From the IMG/VR virus record IMGVR_UViG_3300035698_022790, positions 1 to 33,226 of that record: 33,226 nt of DNA; one strand, written 5' to 3'. This stretch comes from a virus. The notes beneath the pieces are model-generated. The model was not told the origin of the DNA. It ran no database searches and was given only the letters and a program-made list of their open reading frames with translations. Below, in pieces: positions 4,648-25,243 of this stretch (the stretch's first letter is position 1; every line of letters starts with the position of its first letter). Made by a program: the position numbers and the translations under genes.

Positions 4648-4685
4648 TGTTTTTCTCCTGCTGTTTGTTTGTTTATTGTTGCTAT

Positions 4686-5595: not shown

Positions 5596-5607
5596 AACAG
5601 CAGGCGT

Positions 5608-6096: not shown

Positions 6097-6132
6097 CGTT
6101 GTTCTCCTACTGTTTGGTGGTAAAACTATGAA

Positions 6133-6714: not shown

Positions 6715-6902
6715 ACCCGCCTCCCTCGTATACTTTGTAGTTGACAAGGTAACAAAAACGAAAACCCCCCAGGGGGTATGTGACAGGCGGGAAACGGACA
6801 CAGCTCTAATTTTCTAGCAAATTCAAACAATTCATAGTACTTGGGTAGGGATTGCAAGCAATAAAAATTATTTTTTCTTGCTAATCTCACCCGCCAGAAC
6901 AT
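6711..6902 (-). CDS. Tentative 63-aa open frame in the control region
   Basis: From an ATG at 6902 the frame reads protein-like (LPKYYELFEFARKLELCPF, then PACHIPPGGF) and ends in a TGA overlapping the next ATG. There is no ribosome site, and a terminator-like hairpin lies inside it. It could be a real small gene of the minus-strand array or chance coding potential. Confidence 0.2.
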   Translation of the reverse strand: MFWRVRLARKNNFYCLQSLPKYYELFEFARKLELCPFPACHIPPGGFSFLLPCQLQSIRGRRV

Positions 6903-6936
6903 ACTGTATCTAAACGCCACCCACCAACAGCGTTTT

Positions 6937-7479: not shown

Positions 7480-7487
7480 TTCAAACT

Positions 7488-7862: not shown

Positions 7863-7868
7863 AACGAC

Positions 7869-10800
7869 ATGAAGAAAATGCTATTAATAGCTTTGTTGTG
7901 CTTGTTGCCACTTGCAACACTTGCTGACAATCAGAAGATCTCTGAACTAGACGAACTTGACGCTGTTGACGCTGACGATTTGCTCTATATAGTTAGTGAC
8001 CCGAATGGAACGCCTGTTAGCAAAGCGATTCCTGTTCAAGAATTTCTTCACATCTACAACGTGTTGCACTTTGGAGCAATTCCTAATGACGGTCTTGATG
8101 ACACTACAGCAATTCAAGCCGCTCTTACAGCAGCGTCGGTTTCTGGTGGTGTGGTTTACCTTCCAGCAGGTGAATATACTGTAGATACAGATGTCCTTGG
8201 GGTTCTTACTAATGATTCCATAGCAATTACCGGAGATAACGTCACGATTAGAGGTGCTGGGGCAGGTCAGGTCACAATGCAGATGACCGGGACAACTACG
8301 GGATGTAGCATCTTCTATGCCACGGGGATCAACAATCTCATCATTGAGGGGATCAAATTTGTAGGGCTCAGCGACACAGTGGTTTTTGATTCTGCGATTA
8401 ACATTGTCGGAAGTACGACAGCACACATGGATGGGTTTACAATTAAGAATTGCGAGTTCCACGACTTCAAGAGCACAGGGTGGGTCCGGTTCCTGGCCGC
8501 GTCCGGCTCGTACGATATTCGGCATATTCACATCGAGGATTGTCGGTTCTACTCATATACAGGGGACCGATACTCAGACGCAGACGGCGTAGCCAGTGGC
8601 TTTATTCGGATAGATACGAATGGGCCAGGTGGCTATGTTCGGCACGTGCTAATTGAGAATTGCTACATGGATGCCGAGTTCATGCGGCAGGGGATTTCAC
8701 TAAAGGATGGCGTTCAGCACGCGCGCGTGCGGGATTGCTATATCCTCAATACCGGAACAGACCTGGCCACTGATTCCCGTGAGTGCTACGCCATCATGGC
8801 GGGGTATGGTACCGGATGTTCGGATATCTGGATTGAGGACTGCGAACTAATCAATCCTTGGACCTGCGGAGTCTATGCAGTGTCCGCGTCGAATCTTCAC
8901 TTCAACAATAACTACATCAGCGGACAGTCTGACACCTCAGATAGTTCTCTGGCCGTCGGCGGCTATGCCCTGGGCTCGGTCTCCGACGTTTCGATCGTCG
9001 GCGGCTCGGTCACCGATTGCGCGATTGGCGTCCAAATCCAGCCCAACGGCATGGGCGCCGACATTGTTATCGACGCGCTGGCCGTGACCGATTGCGGGGT
9101 CAAGGGGATACAGATCCGCGAGCACGCCATCTACGAGGTCTCCGGCGGCGTGACCATTTCCGACTGTCAACTGACCGGATCGGACATCACGGTCTATCGC
9201 ACCACCGGCGGACACCGCCTGGCCGATGTGACGATCTCCGGCAATACCATCCGTCAGGGCTACATCCACCTGATGACCGGCGTTCTCAACGGCTCGCTGA
9301 CCGCCAATCAGATCCACGCCACCGACCAACTTCATGGTATTCGTTGTGGTGGCGGCCTGGACCTAACTATCTCATCAAACCGCATAAGTGGACCGGGGTC
9401 CTCGGTAGCCAGCAGCTATGGTATTTACGTGGCCTACGGCGTAGTAAATCCATCGATCATCACGGACAATACAATCAGCGGCTTCCAGAATGGCTTCTTC
9501 GGTCAGTACACCGCTGCGACTTTCTGCAACAACGTCCTGTTTGACGTGGCCGAACCTGTGGCTAGTAGTGTTGCCGGCGACCTGGGCCGTGACGCCCCTT
9601 CAACGATCCCCGGAACTGTCACCACTTATTGGCCGGCTGGTGTGTTTGTTGAGAATATGTATCCGAGCGCTGCAATTCTGGGCTGGAAATGCATTGCACC
9701 AACTAGCGGCGTAGGCTCCACGTACACGACGACCACAACCGCTGACATAACCGATACTGAGAGCATTATCACGGACGTAGCCGCCATTGGTCGCTATGTT
9801 CCTGGTGTTGCGATCACTCTGGCCAATGCAGCAGCGGGGCCCGCAACACTCGAAACAGAGGTCATCAGTTGGCAACTCACCTATGGCACCCTGAGTGGAA
9901 CGTTTGAGGATGGCGAGATTGTAGAGGGTCGAACTTCTAAGGCTGTTGGTGTCATCGATAACGACAATGGTAGCACTACGATGTACGTGATTGATATTCG
10001 CTTTTCCGTAGGTGCATTCGCTGCCGGCGAAACGATTGTCGGTCAGCAATCTGCTGCCACTGCTGTGGTTAGTGCTGTAGGTTTGGAAATTGCCGATGCG
10101 GCGGGTGCGACAGTAAATAACGAAACCCTTGCTTTGGTATTGCCAACATGGGTGATTGTAACTGGTGGACAGGCGGGGGACTCATATACATTCAAAGACG
10201 AGAATGCTTCACCCGATGCGGCAGGGGAACTGAAATACGACAACACCGTTACCGGCTTTGCTGATGGAGCATTGGCATTGTACGATGGTGACGAAATTCG
10301 TACAGTAGTTGACCTCGACTCCTCTGAGACGGTGGCGGCGGCAGATGATGCCAAGGTTCTGCGATATAATTGGAATGCCGGAGCAGGGTTCTGGGACCTC
10401 GTAGCACAGGCCGCTGGATACACCAATCTGACCAGCTTTGTTGACCAGACACCTTGGCGATTCTTTTACTCTGACGCCGCCGGCGACATCCAGGAAGTGG
10501 CACTTGGCACAGACGGGCAGGTTCTTACATCGACAGCCGTTGATGGTGCCCCTGGTTTTGAAGACGCTCCAGGCGCGGCTGGTGGTGACAGTATTGAGAT
10601 AGACAGTGTGGCTGTGGTTGATCCTGATTTCCAGGACACTACAACGATCAACGTGACCGATACGGCGAATGTGGTAACGCTTGATGTCAAGGCGGACAGT
10701 ATCGACTCCGCTCATTACGCAGCCGCTTCTATCGACAACGAACACCTTGCTGACGATGCTGTAAATTCAGCAGAGATCGCCACGAACGCTGTCAAGCTGG

Positions 10801-11837
10801 ACGCTCTGGATGTCTCCGATGTTTCCGACGACATTGCTGGGGATATCGCAGAGGGCGAATTGACAGACAGTTCTGTTGTCGCCGCCGACATCAAGGACGG
10901 GGAGATTGCTCTGGCCGATGTGGCTCACACGCTCACTCTGGTAGGCAATCCCGCTCTGGTAGCTGGGCAAGCATTCTGGGCCTCGACGGGGCTCATCTTC
11001 GAGGGGGCGACTGCTAATGACTTCGAGACGTTGCTTGCCGTGACCGATCCAACCGCTGACCGAACGGCCACGTTCCCCGATGCAACGGGTACGGTCGTAT
11101 TCAAGGACACTACAGACACGCTGACGAACAAGACGCTGGCAGCGGCGGATAATGTCATTGAGGCTGACACCGTCACCAATGCTACGTTGACCACCGCGCT
11201 AACCGTCAATACGGGAACGTTGACACTCACGGCCGACGCAGCGAACAACTCGGTCGTGACTATAGGAGCCGGGGCGTCGTCAGTCTCGGGAGCCAACACG
11301 GGCGACAATACGCTCTCTGCCACCTCAACGATTGTAGACGGAACGGATGCCACTAGCTTCGTACTTATCGTTGACAGTGCAACGGGCGATCTAGCATTGA
11401 AAACGGACGGCGGGTTACTCTATGCCGCTGATACAGGAACGCTCAACCCGACGATTGTGAAAACCAGCAACAACATCAAGGACGAACCGAAGCACATGAT
11501 CTTCACGATCATGGACCCACTGTCAACCCAGACGGAGGACAACGAAATCTGCCTCTGGCCGGTAACACCAGCGGCCTTGACCATAACGAAGATCGTCGTG
11601 ACCCTGGATGCAGCGGCCAATGAGGTTGCTGGTGATTTGAAGTATGCGGACGCTTTCATTGGGCTGGCTAATCCTGTTGTGGTTAACACTTTCGATACCA
11701 CTAGCGGCGTTGTCTCCGATGACTCAATTACTTCTGGGTCGGTGGCAGCGAGCAAGTGCCTATACATCGCTTTCGATTCGGCACCGAACACGGCGATCCA
11801 TCAGATGAGTGTCGATATCACTTTTGATTTTGATTAG
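7869..11837 (+). CDS. Tailspike / tail-fibre protein with pectate-lyase-like beta-helix
   Basis: This is a 1322-aa protein. Residues 1-19 are a signal peptide (MLLIALLCLLPLATLA). Residues 20-55 (KISELDELDAVDADDLLYIV) are the strand module found at the N-terminus of many phage fibres. From residue 62, VLHFGAIPNDGLDDTTAIQ and GGVVYLPAGEY mark the start of a pectate-lyase-superfamily beta-helix, which continues through repeated N-x-I-x-G turns to about residue 570. The C-terminal half is a fibre-like array (FADGALALYDGDEIR; DTLTNKTLAAADN). It probably binds or cuts a surface polysaccharide. G+C rises sharply from about 8440, inside the gene, so the body looks joined to a native N-terminus. Confidence 0.85.
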   Translation: MKKMLLIALLCLLPLATLADNQKISELDELDAVDADDLLYIVSDPNGTPVSKAIPVQEFLHIYNVLHFGAIPNDGLDDTTAIQAALTAASVSGGVVYLPAGEYTVDTDVLGVLTNDSIAITGDNVTIRGAGAGQVTMQMTGTTTGCSIFYATGINNLIIEGIKFVGLSDTVVFDSAINIVGSTTAHMDGFTIKNCEFHDFKSTGWVRFLAASGSYDIRHIHIEDCRFYSYTGDRYSDADGVASGFIRIDTNGPGGYVRHVLIENCYMDAEFMRQGISLKDGVQHARVRDCYILNTGTDLATDSRECYAIMAGYGTGCSDIWIEDCELINPWTCGVYAVSASNLHFNNNYISGQSDTSDSSLAVGGYALGSVSDVSIVGGSVTDCAIGVQIQPNGMGADIVIDALAVTDCGVKGIQIREHAIYEVSGGVTISDCQLTGSDITVYRTTGGHRLADVTISGNTIRQGYIHLMTGVLNGSLTANQIHATDQLHGIRCGGGLDLTISSNRISGPGSSVASSYGIYVAYGVVNPSIITDNTISGFQNGFFGQYTAATFCNNVLFDVAEPVASSVAGDLGRDAPSTIPGTVTTYWPAGVFVENMYPSAAILGWKCIAPTSGVGSTYTTTTTADITDTESIITDVAAIGRYVPGVAITLANAAAGPATLETEVISWQLTYGTLSGTFEDGEIVEGRTSKAVGVIDNDNGSTTMYVIDIRFSVGAFAAGETIVGQQSAATAVVSAVGLEIADAAGATVNNETLALVLPTWVIVTGGQAGDSYTFKDENASPDAAGELKYDNTVTGFADGALALYDGDEIRTVVDLDSSETVAAADDAKVLRYNWNAGAGFWDLVAQAAGYTNLTSFVDQTPWRFFYSDAAGDIQEVALGTDGQVLTSTAVDGAPGFEDAPGAAGGDSIEIDSVAVVDPDFQDTTTINVTDTANVVTLDVKADSIDSAHYAAASIDNEHLADDAVNSAEIATNAVKLDALDVSDVSDDIAGDIAEGELTDSSVVAADIKDGEIALADVAHTLTLVGNPALVAGQAFWASTGLIFEGATANDFETLLAVTDPTADRTATFPDATGTVVFKDTTDTLTNKTLAAADNVIEADTVTNATLTTALTVNTGTLTLTADAANNSVVTIGAGASSVSGANTGDNTLSATSTIVDGTDATSFVLIVDSATGDLALKTDGGLLYAADTGTLNPTIVKTSNNIKDEPKHMIFTIMDPLSTQTEDNEICLWPVTPAALTITKIVVTLDAAANEVAGDLKYADAFIGLANPVVVNTFDTTSGVVSDDSITSGSVAASKCLYIAFDSAPNTAIHQMSVDITFDFD

Positions 11838-11844
11838 GAACGAC

Positions 11845-12306
11845 ATGAAGCACACACTGATCCTGACACTACTCTTCACGGCACTCTGCATGGCCCGGCC
11901 GCTGACCGTCCTGGCTGACCCCAACGACCCGCCGTGCAAGCAGGTGTTCTACGAGCCGCCGAGCTTCGCAGATCCGAACCACGTCGTTGGGATCATCCTA
12001 CCGGGGGCATTTGATCCAGTTAGTGGCGTTCCAGTCTGGGAGCTTCCGATTGGGAAGATGAATCGTACCGGACGGGCCTGTGACCCGAACGACGATCCAT
12101 TCGTGGTAACTTCTCAGTCACCCGCCTGGACGGTAACGTACACGGAGACCACCTGGACCCTGAGCGGTAATGTCCGCCCGGGGCCTAACTATGTGCGGGT
12201 TCATGTCACTGACGAGCCAGGACCCTACAACGGGCCTCTGACGGCTCGCTATACAATCCTGATCTGGGGCCTCGTCCCGGAGAATAACGCACCCATTCTG
12301 TTCTGA
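11845..12306 (+). CDS. Secreted Ig-like or cadherin-like fold protein, 153 aa
   Basis: The ATG at 11845, with AGGAA upstream, starts a clear signal peptide (HTLILTLLFTALC, cleavage near VLA-DP). The mature part carries NDDPFVVTSQSPAWTV, then WTLSGNVRPGPNYVRVHVTD and ARYTILIWG. This is an alternating-strand pattern like an Ig-like or cadherin-like domain. Two cysteines near the mature N-terminus and mid-chain could pair outside the cytoplasm. It follows the tailspike by seven bases and may be a partner of it. No firm family. Confidence 0.65.
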   Translation: MKHTLILTLLFTALCMARPLTVLADPNDPPCKQVFYEPPSFADPNHVVGIILPGAFDPVSGVPVWELPIGKMNRTGRACDPNDDPFVVTSQSPAWTVTYTETTWTLSGNVRPGPNYVRVHVTDEPGPYNGPLTARYTILIWGLVPENNAPILF

Positions 12307-12317
12307 GGAAAGAGACC

Positions 12318-12626
12318 ATGGCAACACTGGCAGACATCGCATCTTTGCTTGACACCAACACGCAACTGAGACACCGATTCCTGGGTGGATTACTCAAGGC
12401 CGCGTGGGACGTCCTTAATGAGGCTGCTGGCACAGAGAATCATGTCAACAGGCTCGCACTGGCACGCAAGGTAGTCTTGGACCCAACGTCCATCCTGGAT
12501 GCGTACTACAACTACTACCTCTCGAATGGGACAATTCAGACGACCGGAGATGCGAGTTCGGACAACGATATTCAGTTCGTGGTCAATTCGTTCTACGACA
12601 TTGTGGCCAATCACGAGGCGACGTAA
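12318..12626 (+). CDS. Small phage structural-type protein, 102 aa
   Basis: GGAAAGAGACC precedes the ATG. The sequence begins ATLADIASLLDTN, continues with a helical DVLNEAAGTENHVNRLALAR, and ends NDIQFVVNSFYDIVANHEAT. I recall this arrangement in small tail-region proteins of diverse phages: an LL helix, a middle arginine-rich helix, and a late DIQF.VNS. It has no signal peptide, unlike both neighbours, so it is probably cytoplasmic or virion-bound. Function unknown. Confidence 0.65.
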   Translation: MATLADIASLLDTNTQLRHRFLGGLLKAAWDVLNEAAGTENHVNRLALARKVVLDPTSILDAYYNYYLSNGTIQTTGDASSDNDIQFVVNSFYDIVANHEAT

Positions 12627-12638
12627 GGAGGTTCTATA

Positions 12639-13298
12639 ATGGTTCGCAAAACGACAGCAATTCTGATGCTTGTAATCCTACTGGTGATGCTGCCGGTTGC
12701 TCTGTGGGGTGCCGTCACCAAAACCACCAGCATCAACGGAATTGATGCATGGCAGGCGGTGGCGGGTGGGGCGATGGCGGTCGGAGCGGCTGAAGACGTC
12801 AGCACCAGTTACGAGACGTTGGTGTTTATCGAGGTTGCCCTGACCGATACGGACGCTCAGGCTGGTTGTACCATCATCGTTGAGGGGTCCTATGCCGCCA
12901 ACGACTGGATCACTCTAACGACGTTCAACGGTACGGCAGAGACGCCTGCAACCACGACGCTCAACGACGCAGACGCGGCTGCCACCGATACGACAATAAC
13001 CCTGACGGATGCAACGACCGGCGACTTCGACGTGCCTAGTCGTAAGTGGTTCATTGTGGACGGCACAGTGGCTAATTCAGAGTCTGTGCGAACGGTCAGC
13101 AATTCAACACACACTGTCACACTCGCTCAGGACCTAATGCGGACACACGCCAATGGGCTTGCTGTTTGGGATCGTGTTGACGATTGGGCGGTTGTAATTC
13201 CACCGGCTATTGCCTATGTCCGCGTCCTGGTCAACAACACGGACGCGGACGCCCAAGTCCACTTCCGTAGTTTCTGTAGTATCGTGACGGGAATCTAA
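12639..13298 (+). CDS. Membrane-anchored or secreted beta-rich protein, 219 aa
   Basis: AAGGAGG lies nine bases before the ATG. Residues 5-25 are a signal peptide or anchor (AILMLVILLVMLPVALW). The remainder is Thr/Ala/Asp-rich with strand periodicity (SYETLVFIEVALTDTDA; TTLNDADAAATDTTITLTDA) and a near C-terminal AYVRVLVNNTDADAQVHF. The last segment resembles the jelly-roll or Ig-like modules of phage tail and capsid accessory proteins. The family is not recognised; extracytoplasmic location follows from the signal. Confidence 0.65.
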   Translation: MVRKTTAILMLVILLVMLPVALWGAVTKTTSINGIDAWQAVAGGAMAVGAAEDVSTSYETLVFIEVALTDTDAQAGCTIIVEGSYAANDWITLTTFNGTAETPATTTLNDADAAATDTTITLTDATTGDFDVPSRKWFIVDGTVANSESVRTVSNSTHTVTLAQDLMRTHANGLAVWDRVDDWAVVIPPAIAYVRVLVNNTDADAQVHFRSFCSIVTGI

Positions 13299-13299
13299 C

Positions 13300-14244
13300 A
13301 TGAAACGGCTATCGTTCATACTCCTGTTGTGCCTATTGTCTGTGTCGCAGGCCAACTTCCAACAGAAGCCGATGCTGGGTCTGGGACTCGATCTTGGCAA
13401 CTCCCTGAGCGACCCAGTCGGGCTCTGGCTGATGAACGAGGGCACGGGCGACAAGCTCATCAACCTGGGTGGCCGAGGGGGCGACGGAACGATTACGGGG
13501 GCGCTCTGGGCCTCTTCGTCTTGTGGCCATAGCCTGAGTTTCAACGGCTCCACTGATTACGTTGCCCTGGGTGCGCAACCGGCAATGGATGGGACGTCTG
13601 CGTTTTCGCTGGTTTCATTCTTTAAGCCGCTGGGTGCTTCAGGTAATATTGCCTCTATACTAGACAATTATCCGAGCAACGCCGCTCGTCGGACGAGGCT
13701 GTATTGGTCGGCACAGTATTCGTACGTTGGATTTTTTCTGTACAATGCATCCTATGCGTCGATGACTTGTTGGTCCGGTGCCCAGAATACGGAACCTGCC
13801 GGTGAGTGGTATTTTGTGGTGGGCACGTATGATGGTGCTAATGCGTGGGTGTATATTAACGGAGTCAAACAGGCGACAGGCGGAGCCATCTCGGGGGCCA
13901 CCGCCTCGGGCGATTATTCGACCACTCTGGGTGCAACGAAGCCAGGCGGCGATTCGTTTTTGGAGGGCGACATAGACTATGCCGCAATCTATGATCGTGC
14001 TCTCGCTCCCTCTGAGATCACTAGCCTCTACCGTGACCGATACCAGATGATCCAGAAACCAACGATCGCCCGCCTGTCAGCAGGCGCAGCACCACCGGCG
14101 GGCAACTCGCAGTTCATCCCGATCATAATGACGAACATCGTAGCCGGGCCGCTGGGTCCGGTGCCACTTATACTCACGTTGATTGCAGCCTTTTCTATCG
14201 GAGCGAGGCGACATGTCAAACGGGACAAACGGAACATTACTTAA
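13300..14244 (+). CDS. LamG / concanavalin-like lectin with C-terminal membrane anchor
   Basis: This is a 314-aa protein. Residues 1-18 are a signal peptide (LSFILLLCLLSVSQA). Residues 40-250 carry hallmarks of a LamG (concanavalin-like) domain: GLWLMNEGTGD, SLSFNGSTDYVALG, GEWYFVVGTYDGANAWVYIN, then IDYAAIYDRALAPSEI. The end has a hydrophobic helix (GPVPLILTLIAAFSIG) followed by a basic tail (ARRHVKRDKR), an arrangement like a C-terminal sorting or anchor signal. It probably binds glycans at a membrane or virion surface. The stop lies inside the next gene, which overlaps by 32 bases. Confidence 0.8.
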   Translation: MKRLSFILLLCLLSVSQANFQQKPMLGLGLDLGNSLSDPVGLWLMNEGTGDKLINLGGRGGDGTITGALWASSSCGHSLSFNGSTDYVALGAQPAMDGTSAFSLVSFFKPLGASGNIASILDNYPSNAARRTRLYWSAQYSYVGFFLYNASYASMTCWSGAQNTEPAGEWYFVVGTYDGANAWVYINGVKQATGGAISGATASGDYSTTLGATKPGGDSFLEGDIDYAAIYDRALAPSEITSLYRDRYQMIQKPTIARLSAGAAPPAGNSQFIPIIMTNIVAGPLGPVPLILTLIAAFSIGARRHVKRDKRNIT

Positions 14245-14473
14245 ACTTTCTATGGGTGCTTTGATTGGTTTGGCTTTGGCAGGTCTGGCTTTAGCGGCAA
14301 CCTGGGGCGGACAGAATGTAAAGGTTGCTCAGAATGTTGCTGCCATTTCTGAGAACAAAAGCTGTATTGGTAAGTTGCAAGAACAATATTCTGAACAGAG
14401 AACTGATTTGGCCGTTCTCAAGACACAACTAGAATCCGCGAACGAAAAACTCGACGCATTGCTTAAAAGGTAA
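14213..14473 (+). CDS. Membrane protein with coiled coil (holin- or spanin-like), 86 aa
   Basis: The ATG at 14213 has GAGG four bases upstream and overlaps the LamG gene; a longer in-frame start at 14183 is less likely. Residues 8-32 are one membrane helix (MGALIGLALAGLALAA). Residues 45-86 are a heptad coiled coil (GKLQEQYSEQRTDLAVLKTQ). This single-span plus coiled-coil layout is found in XhlA-like holin accessories and inner-membrane spanins. It is the only lysis candidate on the plus strand and sits directly before the large terminase. Base composition returns to that of the phage core here. Confidence 0.65.
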   Translation: MSNGTNGTLLKLSMGALIGLALAGLALAATWGGQNVKVAQNVAAISENKSCIGKLQEQYSEQRTDLAVLKTQLESANEKLDALLKR

Positions 14474-14477: not shown

Positions 14478-16109
14478 GTGAGTACTGCAATTTCAAATAA
14501 TGAATTAGCAACAGTCAAGCCTGATGGTGAGATGGAGTTGTCTCAAGAGGCTATTGACAAGCTACGAGCACTTTGCAAGAGCAGCTTGTTTTTTCTTGCT
14601 CGAGCAGTTCTTGGCTTTACTAACTTGACGGAGACAATTCATCTTCCAATCTGCAACGACTTGCAAGACCCAGAGAAAACACGAATTATTATTGTCATGC
14701 CAAGAACATGGTTTAAAAGTTCTCTTGGCTCGATTGCCTACCCGATCTGGAGGGCGATTAATGACAAAGAAATAAGAATCCTGATCTGTCAGAACAGTCA
14801 CAACAATGCAATTAAAAAACTTGCAAGCATCAAACAAATTTTTGAGAAGAACAAGTTGTTTCGCTTGTTATTTCCAGAACTTCTGCCTGACGGATTAGGT
14901 AGATGGTCTAGTAGTTGTCTTGAAGTAAACAGGGAAGGAACGCATCCAGAAGGGACTTTTGAGGCGGCTGGAACTGGAACTTCAACAACGAGTCGACACT
15001 TTGATCTAATCATTGAAGACGATACCGTCAGTCCTGAGAAGGACTCGATGGAGCTTGAAATGCAGACGCCAACGGCTGCTGAAATCGAAAAAGCTATCGG
15101 TTGGCACAAGCTCGCAACACCTTTGCTCATACATCCGCTTAAGAGTAAAATTGTCATAATCGGAACCCGATGGTGCGAAGATGATCTCATTGGTTACGTA
15201 CAGGAGAACTTCAAGAACTACTATGTCATCACCAGAGCGGTTCGTGAGAAAGATGGCCTTCCGACGAGCAAAGAAGAAGGTGGTTTACCAGCTTGGCCCG
15301 AACGGTTCAACGAGGCCGTTTTGGAGGAGATCGAGCGAACGCTAGGTCCATACATGTTTGCGACGTTGATGATGAACTTGCCAACATCCGCAACCAATAT
15401 GACTTTTCGGAGGGAATGGATTAGGTTTTATGACAGTATTAACAAAAATAAGCTGCTTATCGTTACCAGTCTTGATCCGGCACCAAGCGATAAAGAATCA
15501 ACAGGCGATCCGGATTACACCTCAATCGTCACAACTGGCGTTGATGTTAGCAACACAACCGTTTATGTGCTTGATGTTGTCAATGCTCGAATGAATCCAG
15601 GCGAAACAATTGACAGGTTGTTCAGTGTTTATGGTTTGTTCAAACCACTCGTTGTTATGGTAGAAACCGTTGCATATCAGCGAACGCTCAAATACTGGAT
15701 TGACAGGATGCAGAAACAGCGAAATGTTCGATTCGTGATTGAGGATGTACCGAACGCTCGGGTATCCAAGGCGGATAGAATTCGTGCTCTGCAACCGTAT
15801 TTTGCTGACAGGCTCGTTGCAATACGGCCGTTTCACGAAACGCTACAACGACAACTGTTGCAGTTTCCTGCTGTTCGTGGACACGATGATGTCATCGACG
15901 CGTTGTCGATGCAGATCAAGCATTGGAATGATTTCTTTCAACGTGCAAAGCAGGTACAAGAAGTTGAGCTTATGAACAATCCGCTTTCTGGTGCAAGCAT
16001 TTTACGAGAACTAGAATCACGACACAAGCGAGCGGCTCAATATCCCTACGACATCGGCATGCTCAAAGATCGCCTCGAAGCACTTGGCGGATCTTATCGC
16101 GTTGCTTAA
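14478..16109 (+). CDS. Terminase large subunit
   Basis: This 543-aa packaging motor starts at GTG, with AAAGG upstream. The ATPase part has an atypical Walker A, PRTWFKSS at residues 75-82, and a Walker B, LIIEDD near 177-182. A coupling-type motif IIGTRWCEDDLIGYV lies near 228-242. The nuclease part has the RNase H-fold acidic residues: SLDPA near 333, VMVETVAY near 396 and HDDVIDAL near 475. Length and motif order match gp17-type terminases. It forms the packaging machine with the portal encoded next. Confidence 0.93.
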   Translation: MSTAISNNELATVKPDGEMELSQEAIDKLRALCKSSLFFLARAVLGFTNLTETIHLPICNDLQDPEKTRIIIVMPRTWFKSSLGSIAYPIWRAINDKEIRILICQNSHNNAIKKLASIKQIFEKNKLFRLLFPELLPDGLGRWSSSCLEVNREGTHPEGTFEAAGTGTSTTSRHFDLIIEDDTVSPEKDSMELEMQTPTAAEIEKAIGWHKLATPLLIHPLKSKIVIIGTRWCEDDLIGYVQENFKNYYVITRAVREKDGLPTSKEEGGLPAWPERFNEAVLEEIERTLGPYMFATLMMNLPTSATNMTFRREWIRFYDSINKNKLLIVTSLDPAPSDKESTGDPDYTSIVTTGVDVSNTTVYVLDVVNARMNPGETIDRLFSVYGLFKPLVVMVETVAYQRTLKYWIDRMQKQRNVRFVIEDVPNARVSKADRIRALQPYFADRLVAIRPFHETLQRQLLQFPAVRGHDDVIDALSMQIKHWNDFFQRAKQVQEVELMNNPLSGASILRELESRHKRAAQYPYDIGMLKDRLEALGGSYRVA

Positions 16110-16121
16110 AAGGATAAAACT

Positions 16122-17813
16122 GTGAAAAAGAGAACAGCCGACGAATGGATGAGTGAAATCGATCACGCTCTTAACTATAGAAAGCTCTATAGTCGAGAGG
16201 AAAAGTGGATCGATCTCGAGCGAACGTTCATGCAAGATCCGCTTGGGGATGCTCTTGTTGGGCCGAACCTGATATACTCACATGGTGATAGCTTGATAAG
16301 TGATTTGACTGTCCCCGATCCTGAGTTCTTGATAGAAGCCATGAACAGCAAGGCTGTTGAGACTGCTCCGATCGTCGAACGCTTAGACAATCAACTTGTT
16401 GGGCCGATGCAACTAAAGCGGGCGGTCGAAAACGGCATCCTGAACAGCTACTTGTATGGTAATCTGATCCTGAAAATTGGCTACGACAGTCAGTTTGGTT
16501 TCAATCCGTATTTCGATATTGGCTCTGAAAAGAACTTCATGGGCATGACCATGACGATGTTTAATCGGAAGGGTCAGCGGATCGAGTTTGGGAATAATCG
16601 TCCTGGTTTTCCTTGGGTTTCTTCCGTTCTGCCCCATGATTTTGTCGTTCCGTGGGGAACTACGACGATTGAAAATGCTCCGTGGTGTGCCTTTCGCTTT
16701 ATACGACAAACGGAATACATCAAACAGGATTTGAAGTACAAGAATAAGCAGATGTTGCAGCCGTCGTTGACAATGGAAGATCACATAGCATCATATGCAT
16801 CTGTTGGTTCTAGACGAACGCGACACGAAGGCATTGTTGGAACAAGCGAACATCAGGATAGGAAAGCAATTTTTAGTGAGTGCTGGGAAATTCACGACGC
16901 AGCAACGCAACGGGTTTATGTTGTCGTGCGTGATTATGATAAGTTCATTCGAGAGGATATTGACGCTATCCAGATGGCAATTGGCGGGTTGCCGGTTGTT
17001 GCCGATAGCTTAATACGACACCCAAGAAGTTTCTGGTCAACACCCTTAGCATACTATCTTGGACAGATACAATCCGATCAACAGGATATTAGTTTCCAAC
17101 AAGCAAAGCAACGTCGGATTAGTATCTTGAAGTTCCTCGTTAGAAAAGATGTAATGACGAAAGAACAACTAACAAGAATTATGAGTGGCGATGTCGGAGC
17201 ATATGAGGAAGTTGATCTAACAACAAGCGTGCCTCTTAGTGAAGTTATTGCAACGGTTCCAACGGGGTCAATGCTTGACTTCCAAATGCAATCAAATTCC
17301 AATAGGCAGGATGCTCGGGATATGATCGGGCAGAGTAAGAATCAACTGGGCGAATACGACACAAGCAGCAGGAGAACTGCGAGAGAAGCAACAATTGTTA
17401 GTCAAGGTTCTGAGAAACGAACCAACAAACGACAGCAGATGGTCGAAGGCGTTTATACTGGCAGTGTCGAAAAGGCAAACCGTCTGATATTTGCCTTTTG
17501 GCAATCGCCACGTGAGATCATGGTTGACAACGATTGGAAAACCGTGACAGGCCCGATGCTCGCAAATGAGTATGGTTATGGTGTAAATCTCTCTGTCAAG
17601 CGTAATTTGTCCAAAGCACAACGGAAAATTGAGGCGTTCCAGACGCTCATGCAGTTTGCTCAGCTGCCTGGGATTGACCTAAATGTGTTGTATACTAATC
17701 TTGTTGATGCAGCAAATGATCCGGCTTTCGAGCGTCTGCTACCGAGTCCGGGCAGCAATCAGGGTGGACGCTCGCCAAGCGGAGGATTACCTACGATACC
17801 TGGTACAGCATAA
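16122..17813 (+). CDS. Portal protein
   Basis: This 563-aa protein starts at GTG, with AAAGGA upstream, 12 bases after the terminase stop. Its length, position and content fit a podophage-type portal: an early W.DLERTFMQDPLGDALVG region, HDFVVPWG near residue 173, a long helical stretch with many Gln and Arg (SDQQDISFQQAKQRRISIL), and a disordered Gly/Pro/Ser tail. It would form the dodecameric ring at the capsid vertex. No single diagnostic motif exists; context is the main support. Confidence 0.85.
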   Translation: MKKRTADEWMSEIDHALNYRKLYSREEKWIDLERTFMQDPLGDALVGPNLIYSHGDSLISDLTVPDPEFLIEAMNSKAVETAPIVERLDNQLVGPMQLKRAVENGILNSYLYGNLILKIGYDSQFGFNPYFDIGSEKNFMGMTMTMFNRKGQRIEFGNNRPGFPWVSSVLPHDFVVPWGTTTIENAPWCAFRFIRQTEYIKQDLKYKNKQMLQPSLTMEDHIASYASVGSRRTRHEGIVGTSEHQDRKAIFSECWEIHDAATQRVYVVVRDYDKFIREDIDAIQMAIGGLPVVADSLIRHPRSFWSTPLAYYLGQIQSDQQDISFQQAKQRRISILKFLVRKDVMTKEQLTRIMSGDVGAYEEVDLTTSVPLSEVIATVPTGSMLDFQMQSNSNRQDARDMIGQSKNQLGEYDTSSRRTAREATIVSQGSEKRTNKRQQMVEGVYTGSVEKANRLIFAFWQSPREIMVDNDWKTVTGPMLANEYGYGVNLSVKRNLSKAQRKIEAFQTLMQFAQLPGIDLNVLYTNLVDAANDPAFERLLPSPGSNQGGRSPSGGLPTIPGTA

Positions 17814-17825
17814 GGAGAAATAACA

Positions 17826-18086
17826 ATGGCGAAGTACAGAAAGAAACCAGTTATTATTGAGGCGATGCAATTTACAGAAGCCTCAAAAGATCAAGTATTC
17901 AATTTTGCCTGTGGTAATCGACATGCTGATTTTGATGCTGATGGAAAACCAGTGCTAGTCATTACGACGCTTGAAGGTGATATGACAGTGAGCATCGGCG
18001 ACTGGGTTATCAAAGGCGTTAAAGGAGAGTTTTATCCTTGCAAGCCTGATATCTTTGACCTGACCTACGAATTGGTAGAGGACTAA
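17826..18086 (+). CDS. PGDYG-type small phage protein, 86 aa
   Basis: It begins AKYRKKPVIIEAMQF and contains LEGDMTVSIGDWVIKGVKGE followed by FYPCKPDIFDLTYE. This is the standard layout of the widespread small phage/bacterial family with a basic KPV.IEA start and a GDW(I/V)..G..GE.Y.C.PDIF core (PGDYG-like). The molecular role is unknown. AAGGAG precedes the ATG. Confidence 0.8.
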   Translation: MAKYRKKPVIIEAMQFTEASKDQVFNFACGNRHADFDADGKPVLVITTLEGDMTVSIGDWVIKGVKGEFYPCKPDIFDLTYELVED

Positions 18087-19313: not shown

Positions 19314-20378
19314 ATGGCTGCAACTTTGCCAAGTCTAACTAGAACTATTGACGACGCGTTTACTAACACGTGGTACGAGATTCGTTCCGACGTGATGGAT
19401 AACGTGCTCGGGGCTACGATTTTGTGGACCGCCATGAAAGAACATGGTTGTTTTGTCCCGCAAACTGGTGGCACCTACATCGAAAGAACAATCGGGTATG
19501 GAGAGAAAAGCACCCAACGATTTAGTAAAGGAAAGGTTCTCGATCAGAGCGTGCCACCCCTCGACACGGCCGGCTTGTGGAGCTGGCGGAACTTCCTAGT
19601 AGACGTCAACCGAACGCTTCTTGACGATGCTCAGAATGCGGGCAAGTTCAAGATCAAAAGCTATCTCGGTCGGCGGATGGAAGCTGCTCGGAATGCACTC
19701 GTTCAGGACAGCGACACGTACAGTATGCAGTGGGGAGATTATTACGATGGCGATGCTCAGTTCAACGGGCTCTATGACATCTGTCCCCTCTATACTGCTG
19801 AATCGGCTGTTGGAGACGGAAGTGCCTCCGACACCCAGGCTACTGGAACAAGCAATGGAGGTCTCAACCGAACCAACACTTGGTGGAGAAACTGGGTTGC
19901 CTATGACGGAGCCAGCGAAACCAAAGCCAGTTACATTGCCGGTCCGACAAACGAGCCTTACAACCTGAACCTCGTTCCTGACATGACGCATATGTTCAAC
20001 TCTATTACTGACAATATGGAGAGCCCCAACTTTGGCCTCATGAATCAGAATATGTTTGAGGCGTATGAAGATGAGGCGATGGACAAGCGGCAGATTGTCG
20101 AAAATGGCTTCACACAGAAGGCCATTGATCTAGGCTTTGCGGCGTTTACTTTCAAGGGTATGACGTTGTCGTGGTCCAGTAAACTAACTGAGAATCACTT
20201 GTTCATGTTAAATCTTAATCACGTCGAGTTCGTCTACAACCCGGCTGCGTGGTTCGACATGACAGATTGGAAGGACAGTGCCAATCAGCTCGAACGTGTT
20301 GCATACATTGTTTGCGTTTGCTCGGGTATGCTTACCGACCAGCCGCGTCGACATGGATGTATGGAGTATGCAAGTTAG
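19314..20378 (+). CDS. Major capsid protein
   Basis: This is a 354-aa protein with AGGAG nine bases before the ATG. Features typical of HK97-fold capsid proteins encoded after a scaffold are an N-terminal helix (AATLPSLTRTIDDAFTNTW), a GGTYIERTIGYGEKSTQRF strand region, a long helix with SYLGRRMEAARNALVQ, a variable insertion at 150-190, and a C-terminal domain ending GMLTDQPRRHGCMEY. Length and position between scaffold and a probable decoration protein support the call. Confidence 0.85.
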   Translation: MAATLPSLTRTIDDAFTNTWYEIRSDVMDNVLGATILWTAMKEHGCFVPQTGGTYIERTIGYGEKSTQRFSKGKVLDQSVPPLDTAGLWSWRNFLVDVNRTLLDDAQNAGKFKIKSYLGRRMEAARNALVQDSDTYSMQWGDYYDGDAQFNGLYDICPLYTAESAVGDGSASDTQATGTSNGGLNRTNTWWRNWVAYDGASETKASYIAGPTNEPYNLNLVPDMTHMFNSITDNMESPNFGLMNQNMFEAYEDEAMDKRQIVENGFTQKAIDLGFAAFTFKGMTLSWSSKLTENHLFMLNLNHVEFVYNPAAWFDMTDWKDSANQLERVAYIVCVCSGMLTDQPRRHGCMEYAS

Positions 20379-20413: not shown

Positions 20414-20977
20414 ATGGCTAGAAAAGTATTGTTTGCAGAAGGTGGTTGCCTAACCAGTCTGCATACCACTGACATTGAGGGCCTCGGTTCGCTGTACGAA
20501 GATCAGTATGGCAACACCTATCGGTATGTCAAGAACGCCGGTGCGACAGCGGTAATTGCTGCGGGGGCTTGCTTGCGAAAGCTCGGGCAGACAACGATCA
20601 AGGCGGCTGTTCAGCGGGTGTTGCCGACTGATGCAGCGACTGGTCCTGCTACTTGTCTGATAACTATGCCCGGCGGTGTTCCTGTTACGGCTATCGCAGC
20701 AAGTGGTGCGTCTGGTGGCGATCATGGCTGGATTCAGGTTGCCGGAACGAAGAAGGTATCAATTCAGCAAGGAGCAACTGCTGTTGATCAGCAAGCCGGT
20801 TGCATTGCGATTGGAACATCAGCCGCAACGATGCCGTGGGCGAAAGCTCTTACTGGCGTAATTGCTAGTACTGTTGGCGGTCTCCGATACTTGCGTTGTG
20901 TCGAGATTGCAGAAAGTCTTGCAACTACAGGTGTCGCGACAGCGGCCAGTGCAATCGTTAACATTCGTTGCCTGTAA
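20414..20977 (+). CDS. Head decoration-like structural protein, 187 aa
   Basis: AGGAG precedes the ATG by about nine bases. The protein is Ala/Gly/Thr-rich with beta periodicity (YRYVKNAGATAVIAAGACL; VAGTKKVSIQQGATAVDQQ) and has no enzyme motif. Small beta-rich proteins directly after the capsid gene are usually decoration or cement proteins on the outer capsid surface. It is therefore a natural glycan acceptor candidate for the sugar genes that follow. Confidence 0.65.
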   Translation: MARKVLFAEGGCLTSLHTTDIEGLGSLYEDQYGNTYRYVKNAGATAVIAAGACLRKLGQTTIKAAVQRVLPTDAATGPATCLITMPGGVPVTAIAASGASGGDHGWIQVAGTKKVSIQQGATAVDQQAGCIAIGTSAATMPWAKALTGVIASTVGGLRYLRCVEIAESLATTGVATAASAIVNIRCL

Positions 20978-20989: not shown

Positions 20990-21703
20990 ATGAGCGAAAG
21001 CGAGAAAGTACGGATAGGTTTAGTCACCCATGTTTTCAATGACATAGACTTTAGTGTCTATTTCAATCACCTCTGGTGTATTGGAAACTGGGCTCCACAT
21101 TATGAAATGGTGTTCCTCGGCAGGCGAGGGCTTGATGCGGCAACTGCGAGAAATCAGTTGTTTGAGCTGGCGATTGAAAAAGAATGCACGCACGTGTTTT
21201 CAATTGATGGCGATCATCTCTTTCCTGTCGAGGCACTACCATGCTTGTTAGAAAATAAAGATGAGGCGATGGTGTCTGGCCTTGTCTGCAAACGCGGCGA
21301 TGGTTATGGGCAAGTGGGTTTTCAAAAAACACCTCAAGGCAGTTATTTGCAAGTGGATTTGCCGCTTGACGGACAGGTTTATGAAGTAGCAGTTTGTGCC
21401 TTCGGTTGTACTTTGATTAATATAACGATGCTCAAGAAGCTCAATAAGCCCTGGTTTCGTGACGAGTGTCGGAAAACGGCTAACAATGATCTTTACAACT
21501 TCCGAAGTGATGTTAATTTGTGTGAGGCGTTTCGGGAAATCGGAGAGAAGTGTTGGATAGACACGCGTGTCCTAATTGGTCATCATGGCATGGACGATGT
21601 CATTTGGCCCCAAGGAGCAGAACAAAAAGCTGCGGTTGATCAGCTACAAAAAAGCATGAAAAAGCTGAAAGACGATCAGAAAGGACATTATTATGAGTAC
21701 TGA
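20990..21703 (+). CDS. GT-A-type glycosyltransferase
   Basis: This is a 237-aa protein. It opens IGLVTHVFNDIDFSVYF and contains GLDAATARNQLFELAIEKEC followed by THVFSIDGDHLFP. This is the order of small GT-A glycosyltransferases in phages: an ATARN helix followed by the nucleotide/metal motif DGDH near residue 76. It should transfer a sugar from an NDP donor. GGATCAGTAGC precedes the ATG. The stop overlaps the next gene start by 11 bases, giving tight coupling with the sugar cassette. Confidence 0.8.
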   Translation: MSESEKVRIGLVTHVFNDIDFSVYFNHLWCIGNWAPHYEMVFLGRRGLDAATARNQLFELAIEKECTHVFSIDGDHLFPVEALPCLLENKDEAMVSGLVCKRGDGYGQVGFQKTPQGSYLQVDLPLDGQVYEVAVCAFGCTLINITMLKKLNKPWFRDECRKTANNDLYNFRSDVNLCEAFREIGEKCWIDTRVLIGHHGMDDVIWPQGAEQKAAVDQLQKSMKKLKDDQKGHYYEY

Positions 21704-22520
21704 TGTACAGTTCTTCACGAATCCGGCGTATGCAAGCAGGAAGAACCGGGGCCAACAGATTCTCGACAGGCTTGGTTGCAAGATAAACGACAAACTAGAC
21801 ACTAACAACTTGCCAAAACATATTGTTTTTGTCAAATGCTTTCCTGACGAACTAGACAAGATGCTAGAAATGGATCTCACGCTCTGGTTCGACTGTATTG
21901 ATACTGACGAATACTTGTCTACTGGTGACAAGAGCCTAGAAAAGATAAAGTTCATTGCAATTGGCGATGCTGCAAAACGATACATACAAGCTCGTGTGAT
22001 GAATGAGGTTGTTGTCCTTCCGGAGCATCACTGTAACTTTGAGCGACAACAGACACCGAAACACAATCAACGTTTTCGTGTCGGCTTTGTTGGCTACAAG
22101 GAAAACTTCTGCCTTGACAGCAGCACACTACAAGATGAGCTTGCTAAAGCAGGCATTGATTTTGTTTCTGCTCTAGTTGGAGAAGACACAACAAGAGAAC
22201 ACGTTGTTGAGTTCTATAACAGCATTGATGCTCAGGTGACGTTTAGGCTTCCAAGAATTGTTCCGGACATGCCACCAGAGATGAAGAATCCTCTGAAAAT
22301 CATCAACGCGGCAAGTTTTGGTCTTGCAACTGTTGGCTATCCTGAGTGCAGTTACGATGAGTTTCCACTCATGTTTCCTGCACACGATCTTGAAGAGGTT
22401 GTCATTCAGTGCAAACGTTTGTCGGAAACCGCACCATTTTATAAAACAGAACTTATTGAACGGGCGGAACGGTATCACATTGACAACATCATCACGCTGT
22501 ATGAGGAGGTGCTGTCATGA
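21693..22520 (+). CDS. GT-B-like glycosyltransferase 1
   Basis: This is a 275-aa protein. The C-terminal half has the GT-B (GT4-like) donor-site pattern: HHCNFERQ, FRVGFVGYKENF, then MKNPLKIINAASFGLATVGY and PECSYDEF, ending in a helix with ERYHIDNIITLYEEVL. The same blocks occur in the protein at 23030-23875, so the two are paralogs. A classical E-x7-E is not obvious. The N-terminal acceptor half is short. It starts inside the GT-A gene and its TGA overlaps the acetyltransferase ATG. Confidence 0.7.
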   Translation: MSTDVQFFTNPAYASRKNRGQQILDRLGCKINDKLDTNNLPKHIVFVKCFPDELDKMLEMDLTLWFDCIDTDEYLSTGDKSLEKIKFIAIGDAAKRYIQARVMNEVVVLPEHHCNFERQQTPKHNQRFRVGFVGYKENFCLDSSTLQDELAKAGIDFVSALVGEDTTREHVVEFYNSIDAQVTFRLPRIVPDMPPEMKNPLKIINAASFGLATVGYPECSYDEFPLMFPAHDLEEVVIQCKRLSETAPFYKTELIERAERYHIDNIITLYEEVLS

Positions 22521-23033
22521 CGCAACAATACGAACCAACTGTTTATTTTGGCGAATTGCCGACAAAAGAAGATGCTGAGATTCTTGCTGGCCTGATAACT
22601 TGTTGGCCGCACCTCAAAGAGTTGTTTGCAAGCAACGGGCGGATACTTAATGGCAACATCCCATCTCACACTGTTGCTCTTCGAGATGGCGAAAAACTAG
22701 TTGCTCATTGTGGGCTACTTGAAAAATGGTTGATTGCAGACAACAATTACGCCGTACTCGGCTTGCAACAACTATTTATCATGCCAGATTATAGACATCA
22801 AGATGTTACCAAACAGGTCCTCGACGCTTGTGTTGTTTTAGCTAATCGTCTCAAACTTGACTTTCTTGTTGGATTTGCTCAGGCTGGCATTTGTGAATTT
22901 CACAGAAAAAGCCGGTTGGAGTGTCTCCACACGATTGTTCGATGAAAAACACTTCATGGTGTGGCGAGGTGCGGGTTGTCAAACAGAGTCTCTTGATCCA
23001 GATAAGATAAAACTGGAAGGGGGCCTCTGGTGA
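22517..23033 (+). pseudogene. GNAT N-acetyltransferase with +1 frameshift
   Basis: Frame 0 runs from ATG 22517 and stops at 22945. It carries GNAT features: LQQLFIMPDYRHQDVTKQVL (beta4 strand and CoA-binding P-loop region), then FLVGFAQAGICEFHRK. At the A5 tract 22906-22910 the expected continuation moves to the +1 frame, KAGWSVSTRLFDEKHFMVW. That frame runs to TGA at 23031-23033 and overlaps the GTG start of the next gene exactly, as other genes in this cassette overlap. Removing one A restores a 171-aa protein. The cause may be sequencing error, mutation or programmed slippage. Confidence 0.75.
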
Positions 23034-23875
23034 AAAAGTTACGCTTCTTTCATAATGGCCGAACAACTGGCTTGTTGAGAGCACAACAAATTGCAGATTA
23101 TCTTGGTCCAGATATTGCTACTTGCAACGAGAAGGCCGAACCGGGAGACGTCGCGATTTGTGTTAAGGGTTGTCCGGACAAAATTACTAGAGATGTTGAG
23201 TTTTACGTCGATTTTGGTGACGATGAGAATTGTCTTCACGACCTGTTTAAACACAGCACAAGAACGCACCAAGCACTAAAATATATAACATACACCTCGG
23301 CATCTGCTGACAGGATAAAACACAACTTTGGAATTGAACCTGTTTTGATTCCAGACTTTCATTGCAACTTTGAAAATGCTGTCAACAAAGAGCGACACTA
23401 CAACCGAGCATTTCATGTTGGCAACAAATTCTCTTTCGATTACAACTTTGCTTGGTTGACAACACGATTTTTGCGTGAAGTGTCGGTTGACTTTCGACAC
23501 ATCAAATTTGATAGCCCAGACGACTTGACTCGACATGATGTTTGTTCCTCATTTTTGAATAGCGATTTCTTTGTCGATTTCAGAAAGGATTACCTTTCTA
23601 CTTCTCGATCACGAATTTTTCAATCATCACTGAAACTGCTCAATGCAATGGCGTTTGGTGTTCCGGCTGTTTGTTATCCACGAGAAGGTTATCTAATGAG
23701 CGGGTTGCAGCCTGGTTTTCATCCGGCGTTCGATCTCGATGGCATAATTGCTGGCATTCGCCTGTTGCAAGAAAGCAAAGATTACTATCAACAGGTAATG
23801 TATAGTGGTTTGAAGATAGCCAAGCGATATCATATATCTGTCATTGCCAAGTTGTATAAGGAGCTCTTGACATGA
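23030..23875 (+). CDS. GT-B-like glycosyltransferase 2 (paralog)
   Basis: This 281-aa protein starts at GTG overlapping the shifted acetyltransferase stop (GTGA), with GAAGGGGG upstream. It shares the blocks FHCNFENA, YNRAFHVGNKFSF, QSSLKLLNAMAFGVPAVCYP and a final KRYHISVIAKLYKELL with the protein at 21693-22520. It probably uses an NDP-sugar donor in the GT4-like manner. Two diverged copies around an acetyltransferase suggest two different linkages of one glycan. Its TGA overlaps the aminotransferase ATG. Confidence 0.7.
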   Translation: MKKLRFFHNGRTTGLLRAQQIADYLGPDIATCNEKAEPGDVAICVKGCPDKITRDVEFYVDFGDDENCLHDLFKHSTRTHQALKYITYTSASADRIKHNFGIEPVLIPDFHCNFENAVNKERHYNRAFHVGNKFSFDYNFAWLTTRFLREVSVDFRHIKFDSPDDLTRHDVCSSFLNSDFFVDFRKDYLSTSRSRIFQSSLKLLNAMAFGVPAVCYPREGYLMSGLQPGFHPAFDLDGIIAGIRLLQESKDYYQQVMYSGLKIAKRYHISVIAKLYKELLT

Positions 23876-25062
23876 TTCCCCTTTTTAAAGTTAATATGAG
23901 CGACGAAGCTCCGAAACGAGTGAAAGAAGTTCTGAACTCTGGTTATATTGGAGAAGGCGAAAGTGTCCTGGAGTTTCAGCACGCTTGCGGAGAATTGCTG
24001 AAAAACAAATTCGTCTTGCCCGTTAACAGCGGCACGTCAGCGTTACAACTAGCCCTGACACTGGCGAATGTCAAGCCGGGTGATTTCGTTATCAGCACAC
24101 CCATGACGTGTCTGGCAACCAACATGGCGATCCTGAACGTTGGAGCTCGCATTCTGTGGGCGGATGTTGACAAGCTAACTGGAAACATTGATGTTGCTAG
24201 TGTGGAGGAATTGCTTATACGCAACCCTGATAACGTCAAGGCAGTTATGTGTGTCCATTGGGCGGGGTATCCGTGTGACATGAATGCGTTGTGGGAGCTT
24301 GGTAGACGATACGACGTTCAGATAATCGAAGACGCTGCTCACGCTTGGCTTGCAACACACGGCAACATCTTGGTCGGACAAAAAAGTGACTTTGCGTGTT
24401 TCTCATTTCAAGCAATCAAACATTTAACCACTGGCGATGGCGGCTTGCTAGCTGTCAACTCAAGGGAGGTGTTCGAGCGTGCCCGACTCTTGAAGTGGTT
24501 CTGTCTCGACAGGGGCATCAACACTGAGCTCCGTTGTCAACAGGACCCGTGTGAGAGTGGGTTCAAATACCATATGAATGACATCGCAGCCGCCATTGGC
24601 CTCGCAAATGTCCAACGATCAATTCACAGCGTTTATACGGCTCGGATGAACGCAGCACATTTTAACTACGAATTTGCTCACCTAAGACGATTCACCTTAC
24701 CAACATACGCAACGAATCGTCTTAGCAGCTATTGGCTCTATCCACTCTTGGTAGATGACAGAGATGCGTTTGTTGCTTATGCAAAAGGGGAGGGTGTGCA
24801 CGCTTCTCCAGCACATGTAAGAAATGATACCAAAACCGCTTTTCAACAATCCGTTGTTGAACTGCCAGGAGTGGATTTTTTCGACAAACATCAGGTGAAC
24901 ATTCCTGTTGGTTGGTGGCTCAGCGAGAAGGACAAAGACATCATCATTAACACCGTTAGGAGTTTTGACAATGGCAGCTACAGTAGCAGAAAATCAGACA
25001 CGGGCATTCAAAAGAGCAATGGCCATCTTGCAGCGAACTGCTGGGCTCAGTCATGCGGATAG
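23872..25062 (+). CDS. DegT/DnrJ/EryC1/StrS-type sugar aminotransferase
   Basis: This 396-aa PLP enzyme would convert an NDP-keto-sugar to an amino sugar. Family marks are IPLFKVNMSDEAPKRVKEVL, GYIGEGESVLEFQ, NSGTSALQLAL, the PLP-binding IEDAAHAW (Asp near 151) and the Schiff-base lysine in FSFQAIKHLTTGDGG (near 184), followed by KYHMNDIAAAIGLANV. The natural end is near IINTVRSF; the last 30 residues overlap the next gene by 92 bases and look out of place. With the GNAT gene it could give an N-acylated amino sugar. No dehydratase is encoded, so the keto-sugar must come from the host. Confidence 0.9.
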   Translation: MIPLFKVNMSDEAPKRVKEVLNSGYIGEGESVLEFQHACGELLKNKFVLPVNSGTSALQLALTLANVKPGDFVISTPMTCLATNMAILNVGARILWADVDKLTGNIDVASVEELLIRNPDNVKAVMCVHWAGYPCDMNALWELGRRYDVQIIEDAAHAWLATHGNILVGQKSDFACFSFQAIKHLTTGDGGLLAVNSREVFERARLLKWFCLDRGINTELRCQQDPCESGFKYHMNDIAAAIGLANVQRSIHSVYTARMNAAHFNYEFAHLRRFTLPTYATNRLSSYWLYPLLVDDRDAFVAYAKGEGVHASPAHVRNDTKTAFQQSVVELPGVDFFDKHQVNIPVGWWLSEKDKDIIINTVRSFDNGSYSSRKSDTGIQKSNGHLAANCWAQSCG

Positions 25063-25243
25063 CAAAGTTGGTGCTGCAACACCGAATAGGATCAAGCGTC
25101 GGATGTGGCTCAACGTGGGTGCTCCAGCTGGGGCAGCTCCTGATGGCATGACCGGAGGCGATTGGATTCTCGATACTACAAACGACGATCTTTATTGGTG
25201 GATCAGTGCAACAAGTTACATCCAGATTAACCAGATTGCATAA
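24971..25243 (+). CDS. Virion-type protein with LNVGAP motif, 90 aa
   Basis: The ATG at 24971 has AGGAG eight bases upstream and lies inside the aminotransferase frame. The N-terminus is a basic helix (NQTRAFKRAMAILQRTAGL). The C-terminus reads LNVGAPAGAAPDGMTGGDWI, then DDLYWWISATSYIQI. The last part is the strand pattern of phage fibre or neck modules and resembles the protein at 7488-7862 (LNVGAPTGAPD). It lies ahead of the neck genes, so a structural role is likely. Confidence 0.65.
   Translation: MAATVAENQTRAFKRAMAILQRTAGLSHADSKVGAATPNRIKRRMWLNVGAPAGAAPDGMTGGDWILDTTNDDLYWWISATSYIQINQIA

Follow-up and report, generated by a model that had tools for sequence, protein, structure and literature searches.

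A putative virion-glycosylation island within the head operon of a group of environmental phages

Introduction

Why would a phage keep a block of sugar-handling genes among the genes for its capsid? The question is raised by a 33,226-base virus record of the IMG/VR type (IMGVR_UViG_3300035698_022790; the whole stretch is called the window below), which is a fragment. In it, genes for three glycosyltransferases (GT-A, GT-B1, and GT-B2), a GNAT acetyltransferase, and a DegT-type sugar aminotransferase lie between deco, a candidate capsid decoration gene, and the adaptor genes. Phage particles are usually regarded as bare protein. On balance, we think it probable that the block is a virion-glycosylation island in the head operon, acting late to glycosylate the particle with a 4-amino sugar and with Deco as the favored acceptor. 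We favor this reading because the slot is fixed in 20 of 20 relatives, holds only genes of the glycan- or methyl-transfer type, and is exchanged together with deco; because the predicted GT-A fold is nearest to protein glycosyltransferases and to STIV (Sulfolobus turreted icosahedral virus) A197; and because, in six contigs with connector genes of the HK97 type, a DegT gene directly follows a neck gene, while the enzymes of the block appear soluble and come with no lipid-linked module.

Results

Genes of the head operon run in the order terminase (phrog_38), portal, scaffold, major capsid protein (MCP), deco, the five-gene block, adap100, adaptor, and tail genes, where the names portal, scaffold, deco, and adaptor come from position and homology within the group and not from profile matches. 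Relatives were collected by scanning IMG/VR with two kinds of query, the capsid protein and alignments; a scan of viral contigs with the single GT-A sequence returned nothing, and it was the alignment query that found relatives. In 20 distinct phages, the window included, the interval that starts at deco and closes with adap100 or the adaptor is complete (L101 was left out of the count, as the gene after its deco is truncated where the contig stops and cannot be recognized as GT-A). GT-A is present in all 20 intervals, GT-B1 in 11, and DegT in 9. Each interval holds one to five cassette genes, all of the glycan- or methyl-transfer type (GT-B, DegT, methyltransferase, GNAT, sulfotransferase, LicD, and deacetylase), and no gene of other function was found inside any of the 20. 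The recurrence of GT-A at one site exceeds chance.

The contents of the slot are otherwise variable. A separate methyltransferase gene is found in four phages (L003, L019, L020, and L121), and in L120, which also carries a GNAT-like remnant, the methyltransferase is fused to a sulfotransferase (PF13469, 1e-12). GT-A has a C-terminal methyltransferase domain in seven phages (tested with Pfam in L106 and L110 and assigned by length and sequence pattern in the others). A LicD domain is fused to GT-B1 in L017 (PF04991, 2.1e-9), and L113 has a polysaccharide deacetylase (PF01522, 1.5e-8). The cassette is absent from the slot in six more distant phages (L004, L008, L010, L011, L012, and L131), which form a separate capsid clade with support of 100/100. 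The search for relatives with and without the cassette that the initial annotation had proposed thus returned both kinds, 20 with it and six without. One cassette-less relative, L004, has a distant GT-A-like gene (3892 to 4677) upstream of terminase, in the tail-fiber region.

Two other accounts of the slot were rejected. Recent random insertion does not fit the GT-A tree, which shows a long shared history within each cassette class, or the GC content at third codon positions (GC3), which at 0.45 to 0.50 in GT-A, GT-B1, and DegT is like that of terminase and portal. A collection of unrelated cargo genes does not fit the uniform content of the 20 intervals.

GT-A and GT-B1 have no sequence match in 50,697 phage records, and among cultured-phage records the MCP matches three unclassified phages only, at 21 to 23% identity. 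When 84,980 bacterial and archaeal genomes were scanned with GT-A, no relative turned up and thus no prophage or host link, and relatives of GT-A or GT-B were not found among the genes beside the cellular DegT genes that we fetched. A similarity search at the DNA level matched the structural region over stretches of about 100 bases only.

Exchange of the cassette was examined with three classes of our own definition: GT-A plus GT-B with or without DegT, GT-A-methyltransferase fusion, and short GT-A alone. Placing these on the deco tree needs two changes of class, the minimum, compared with four on the portal tree (19 rows), six on the MCP tree, and seven on the adap100 tree. After correction for MCP distance, deco distances track those of GT-A (partial r of 0.69; 0/2000 permutations), and those of adap100 do so weakly (0.28; 4/2000 permutations); scaffold, portal, terminase, and adaptor distances follow the MCP and not GT-A. 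In pairs matched at an MCP identity of 0.45 to 0.62 (about 54%), deco identity is 0.44 within a class versus 0.29 between classes, while adap100 identity is 0.28 in both cases. L125 and L127 illustrate this, with 89% identity in the MCP, 74% in adap100, 40% in deco, and 26% in GT-A. The MCP moves independently of the cassette, and adap100, the adjacent control on the opposite flank, behaves unlike deco.

The genes on these flanks are all on the + strand. The MCP gene (19314 to 20378; phrog_9953 major head protein, 3.7e-16) is the upstream anchor, and deco (20414 to 20977; 187 amino acids) is the first gene after it. Profile searches with Deco gave zero matches; deco segregates with cassette class, and its homologs occur in cassette-less phages as well. 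The adap100 gene (24971 to 25243; 90 amino acids) closes the slot before the adaptor, and its homologs stand at the end of the slot in relatives. In L020, a free-standing LAGLIDADG-like homing endonuclease gene lies between the MCP gene and deco (6919 to 7350), adjoining the exchange point.

All five block genes that the initial annotation had placed in the head operon lie where it put them, on the + strand; DegT is borne out by profile and GT-A and GT-B1 by fold, and the exception is the GNAT open reading frame (ORF), which is frameshifted. For GT-A (20990 to 21703), the constant first gene of the slot, sequence profiles only hint at function (Glycos_transf_2 at an E value of 0.034, below the cut-off; phrog_1574, of unknown function, at 2.7e-10). 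Structure prediction and fold search, which had been suggested for all five proteins, were run for GT-A and GT-B1 and matched the GT-A and GT-B folds. The AlphaFold model of GT-A (pLDDT [predicted local distance difference test], 73) has 217 Foldseek matches in the PDB at an E value of ≤0.001, the best being LH3 (8.5e-10) and STIV A197 (1.9e-8), with COLGALT1 and GalNAc-Ts also found; the best solved fold matches of the model are protein glycosyltransferases. A DxD metal site aligns at D73-G-D75, and both Asp residues, as well as H198, are invariant in seven homologs; two short GT-As of other cassette classes have ExD in its place.

GT-B1 (21693 to 22520) gave no match in a profile search. Its model (pLDDT, 85) has 37 PDB matches at an E value of ≤0.001, and all of the best ones are GT-B enzymes: 7fga (8.1e-8) and PimA (2.1e-7), which are of the GT4 type, and also TarM and SdgB. 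In our reading of the alignment, Asn205 seems to occupy the position of the second Glu in the GT4 E-x7-E donor site. GT-B2 (23030 to 23875), found in this phage only, is a divergent paralog that is 29% identical to GT-B1 and keeps its invariant residues.

DegT (23872 to 25062) is identified with certainty by its profile. It matches Pfam DegT_DnrJ_EryC1 (PF01041) at 2.9e-71 over profile positions 5 to 359 of 360, and its pyridoxal phosphate lysine, K183, lies in a conserved S-F-x-x-x-K motif and is invariant in seven homologs. The closest solved relatives, which align over the full length, are the sugar aminotransferases AtmS13 (2.3e-76) and CalS13 (1.3e-64), followed by ArnB (2e-37); AtmS13 and CalS13 belong to actinomycete antibiotic-sugar pathways. 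The initial annotation had left the product as a 4- or 3-amino sugar, and the ranking of these relatives would favor the former. It had also reported that no dehydratase is present, and this holds more widely: none of the 16 records searched has a PF01370 protein, and G003 and G009, two relatives that have exact terminal repeats, show none among their genes scanned with Pfam. The nucleoside diphosphate (NDP)-keto sugar would therefore have to be supplied by the host. The closest cellular DegT proteins are bacterial, with identity up to 49%. In L121 (7979 to 9085) and L122, DegT is of a different and more distant subfamily than the other eight, which suggests replacement of DegT within the slot.

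DegT genes are also found near virion genes in another lineage. We surveyed 56 nonredundant phage DegT loci, naming each cluster after a single representative. No more than six genes from DegT, a GNAT gene is found at 25 loci, a gene of the NDP-sugar epimerase/dehydratase type at 24, and one of the GT2 type at 12. DegT directly follows a gene of the HK97-gp10/Neck1 type in six contigs that have HK97-type connector genes (L024, L027, L035, L036, L042, and L090; capsid type checked in L024, PF05065, 6.5e-29). GNAT comes next after DegT in five of the six, and all have GT2-type genes nearby. These contigs are independent support for a link between a DegT module and virion genes. In L026, an unrelated phage contig, genes of the GT, GT-B, DegT, and methyltransferase-like kinds form a longer run (5275 to 12846), which directly precedes signal-peptide-bearing tail proteins resembling the spike of the window.

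Overlapping start and stop codons had been said to link the block genes. This is so at three of the junctions, GT-A/GT-B1 (-11 nucleotides), GT-B1/GNAT (-4; ATGA), and GT-B2/DegT (-4; ATGA), and not as sequenced at GNAT/GT-B2, where there is a gap of +84 nucleotides because GNAT is frameshifted. The last 92 nucleotides of the DegT ORF overlap adap100 (ATG at 24971, with AGGAG ahead of it at about 24958), and L002 has an overlap of the same kind between DegT and the next gene. From gene order, we infer the late expression that had been proposed. A promoter scan gave 16 promoter-like sites compared with 10.0 (standard deviation, 3.3) in shuffles, and terminator counts were near expectation; neither was used as evidence.

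The GNAT ORF (22517 to 22945) matches Acetyltransf_1 at an E value of 0.0011, just under the Pfam cut-off, and the aligned part is common to the GNAT-like ORF of L120. It departs from the family pattern at CACAGAAAAAGCCGG, near its C terminus, at a run of five A residues (about 22899 to 22913). The +1 frame (22912 to 23033, + strand; translation AGWSVSTRLFDEKHF...) resumes the domain as AGWSVSTRLFDEKHFMVWRG... and ends at a TGA (23031 to 23033) overlapping the start codon of GT-B2 (GTG at 23030), as at other junctions of the block. The L120 ORF aligns up to FHRK/FYKR and then goes on as CGWYTYGT. With a profile score under the cut-off and a frameshift before the domain end, no intact GNAT domain is found, and the protein is probably broken as sequenced. 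We attribute the frameshift either to misassembly at the homopolymer or to a lesion of recent origin. The pairing of DegT with GNAT on which the initial annotation had drawn is common in the wider survey, but GNAT is not core to this slot, being present in 2 of the 20 loci, in one of them as the apparent remnant.

Discussion

How might such a block work? The biochemical steps that we infer are as follows. The block genes would be cotranscribed late with the capsid genes. DegT would convert a host NDP-4-keto sugar to an NDP-4-amino sugar, which GNAT, where intact, could N-acylate. We imagine that GT-A primes the glycan, attaching the first sugar to one of the structural proteins (most likely Deco), and that the chain is then lengthened by the GT-B enzymes, one of which would contribute the amino sugar. 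The other finishing enzymes of relatives (methyl-, sulfo-, and LicD-type transferases and the deacetylase) would then mean that the slot sets the glycan type of the particle. One can envision, more tentatively and with somewhat less than even confidence, a capsid "glycotype" locus comparable to bacterial serotype loci, in which deco and the cassette form one replaceable surface module, passed as a whole from phage to phage, and particles with the same capsid wear different coats (amino, methyl, sulfo, or phospho type).

Several points weigh against virion glycosylation through Deco. The likeness of the models to GT-A and GT-B folds does not fix the acceptor. Coexchange with deco rests on about four exchange events, and a test for coevolution of deco and GT-A within classes gave no signal. 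Since deco adjoins GT-A, plain linkage could yield coexchange, and Deco is a candidate decoration protein by position only. In addition, DegT and GT genes of other phages lie in large sugar clusters, apart from recognized head genes.

Might the cassette instead alter host O-antigen or capsule during infection, for receptor masking or superinfection exclusion, with the head operon merely a convenient place to insert? Bacterial clusters for surface sugars typically contain genes of these kinds (DegT, GNAT, methyltransferase, and GT), the nearest cellular relatives of DegT come from bacteria (up to 49% identity), and DegT occurs with epimerases and GTs in many other phages. Temperate phages carry serotype-converting gtr loci, which resemble the block in being phage-borne GTs. 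However, the flippase and lipid-linked glucosyl carrier enzymes that mark gtr loci are lacking here: searches of the block genes for flippase/GtrA or lipid-linked-module profiles and for a multi-pass protein found none. The site is fixed between capsid genes in 20 phages, the cassette exchanges with deco and not with adap100, and enzymes made late would do little to mask a receptor. We therefore find host modification unlikely. The preference of the initial annotation for virion over host glycosylation holds up on this indirect evidence, together with the tight junctions and the DegT genes among the connector genes of a second lineage.

A slightly less likely alternative is that other virion proteins are glycosylated (the MCP, tail spikes with signal-like N termini, or Adap100) and that deco is exchanged as a plain neighbor. 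Deco does adjoin GT-A, and mycobacteriophage glycans are described on capsid and tail tube subunits (PMC12619734). Adap100, equally adjacent on the opposite side, shows no such coexchange, and the MCP moves independently of the cassette. Modification of DNA, in which GTs put an amino sugar on bases of the phage genome, seems very improbable to us. Viral GTs can glycosylate DNA with diverse sugars (Pyle 2024, cited in PMC12619734; phage Thanatos, PMC12838424). However, a hydroxymethylase of the thymidylate synthase fold (PF00303) is absent from the 16 records, of which the window is itself a fragment, and from the scanned genes of the two terminal-repeat relatives; the block lies among head genes and not those of nucleotide metabolism; and the GT-A model best matches protein glycosyltransferases.

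Virion glycosylation is itself already known. Mycobacteriophage virions are glycosylated by phage-encoded GTs (Che8 gp110, Corndog gp38, and Myrna; Freeman et al. 2023, via PMC12363180, PMC11600133, and PMC12619734), and the tailed phages that we found cited as having demonstrated virion glycans are mycobacteriophages. The likeness lies in phage-encoded GTs, which in those phages modify virion proteins and in the window are known from genes and folds. In cluster O, three tandem GTs adjoin an O-methyltransferase gene (PMC11600133, PMC12363180), and in Maravista the GTs are near the 3′ end of the genome, unlike the cassette in the head operon; no DegT or GNAT is reported in the cited sections. 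Flagellin glycosylation islands (PMC4875605) are similar in content, with variable GTs (including GT-methyltransferase fusions), DegT, and N-acetyl- and methyltransferases, and in layout, standing at a constant position next to the gene that encodes a glycosylated surface protein. They differ in serving a bacterial flagellum, in having one to eighteen genes rather than one to five, and in carrying their own sugar biosynthetic genes, whereas the slot has no NDP-sugar dehydratase. STIV A197 (PDB 2c0n) is, according to a review that calls its activity uncharacterized, the candidate glycosylating enzyme of the glycosylated STIV coat protein (PMC4187194). Like GT-A it is a small GT-A enzyme, but it comes from an unrelated archaeal virus and is 15% identical. 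In the open-licence literature, we found no account of a glycosylation island with DegT among phage head genes, nor of the exchange of such an island with a capsid surface gene; what is new is the swappable, putative amino-sugar island in the head operon.

If our reading is true, sugar coating would be built into this group of environmental phages as a trait that evolves, with genes of the head operon varying like bacterial surface-antigen loci and moving with one candidate surface protein. It names items that can be tested: the acceptor (Deco), the sugar class (4-amino), and natural comparisons, such as L125 with L127, between phages whose capsids are close but whose cassettes differ. The role of capsid glycans for phages would thereby become directly approachable.

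Other features of the group deserve mention. Six tail-region proteins of the window (starts at 7488, 7869, 11845, 12639, 13300, and 14213; 7488 to 14470), among them a 1,322-amino-acid beta-helix spike and a LamG protein, have hydrophobic N termini that are signal-peptide-like or membrane-anchor-like. Signal-like N termini are unusual for phage tail proteins. GC3 is 0.57 to 0.70 across 7869 to 14241, compared with about 0.45 in terminase and portal. In the closest relative, L002, the terminase large subunit (1260 to 3668) has an in-frame insertion of about 260 amino acids that is intein-like, with a LAGLIDADG-type motif. In L135 (G003), an intein-like stretch placed immediately after GSGKG appears to interrupt an AAA-type ATPase gene (15992 to 17833).

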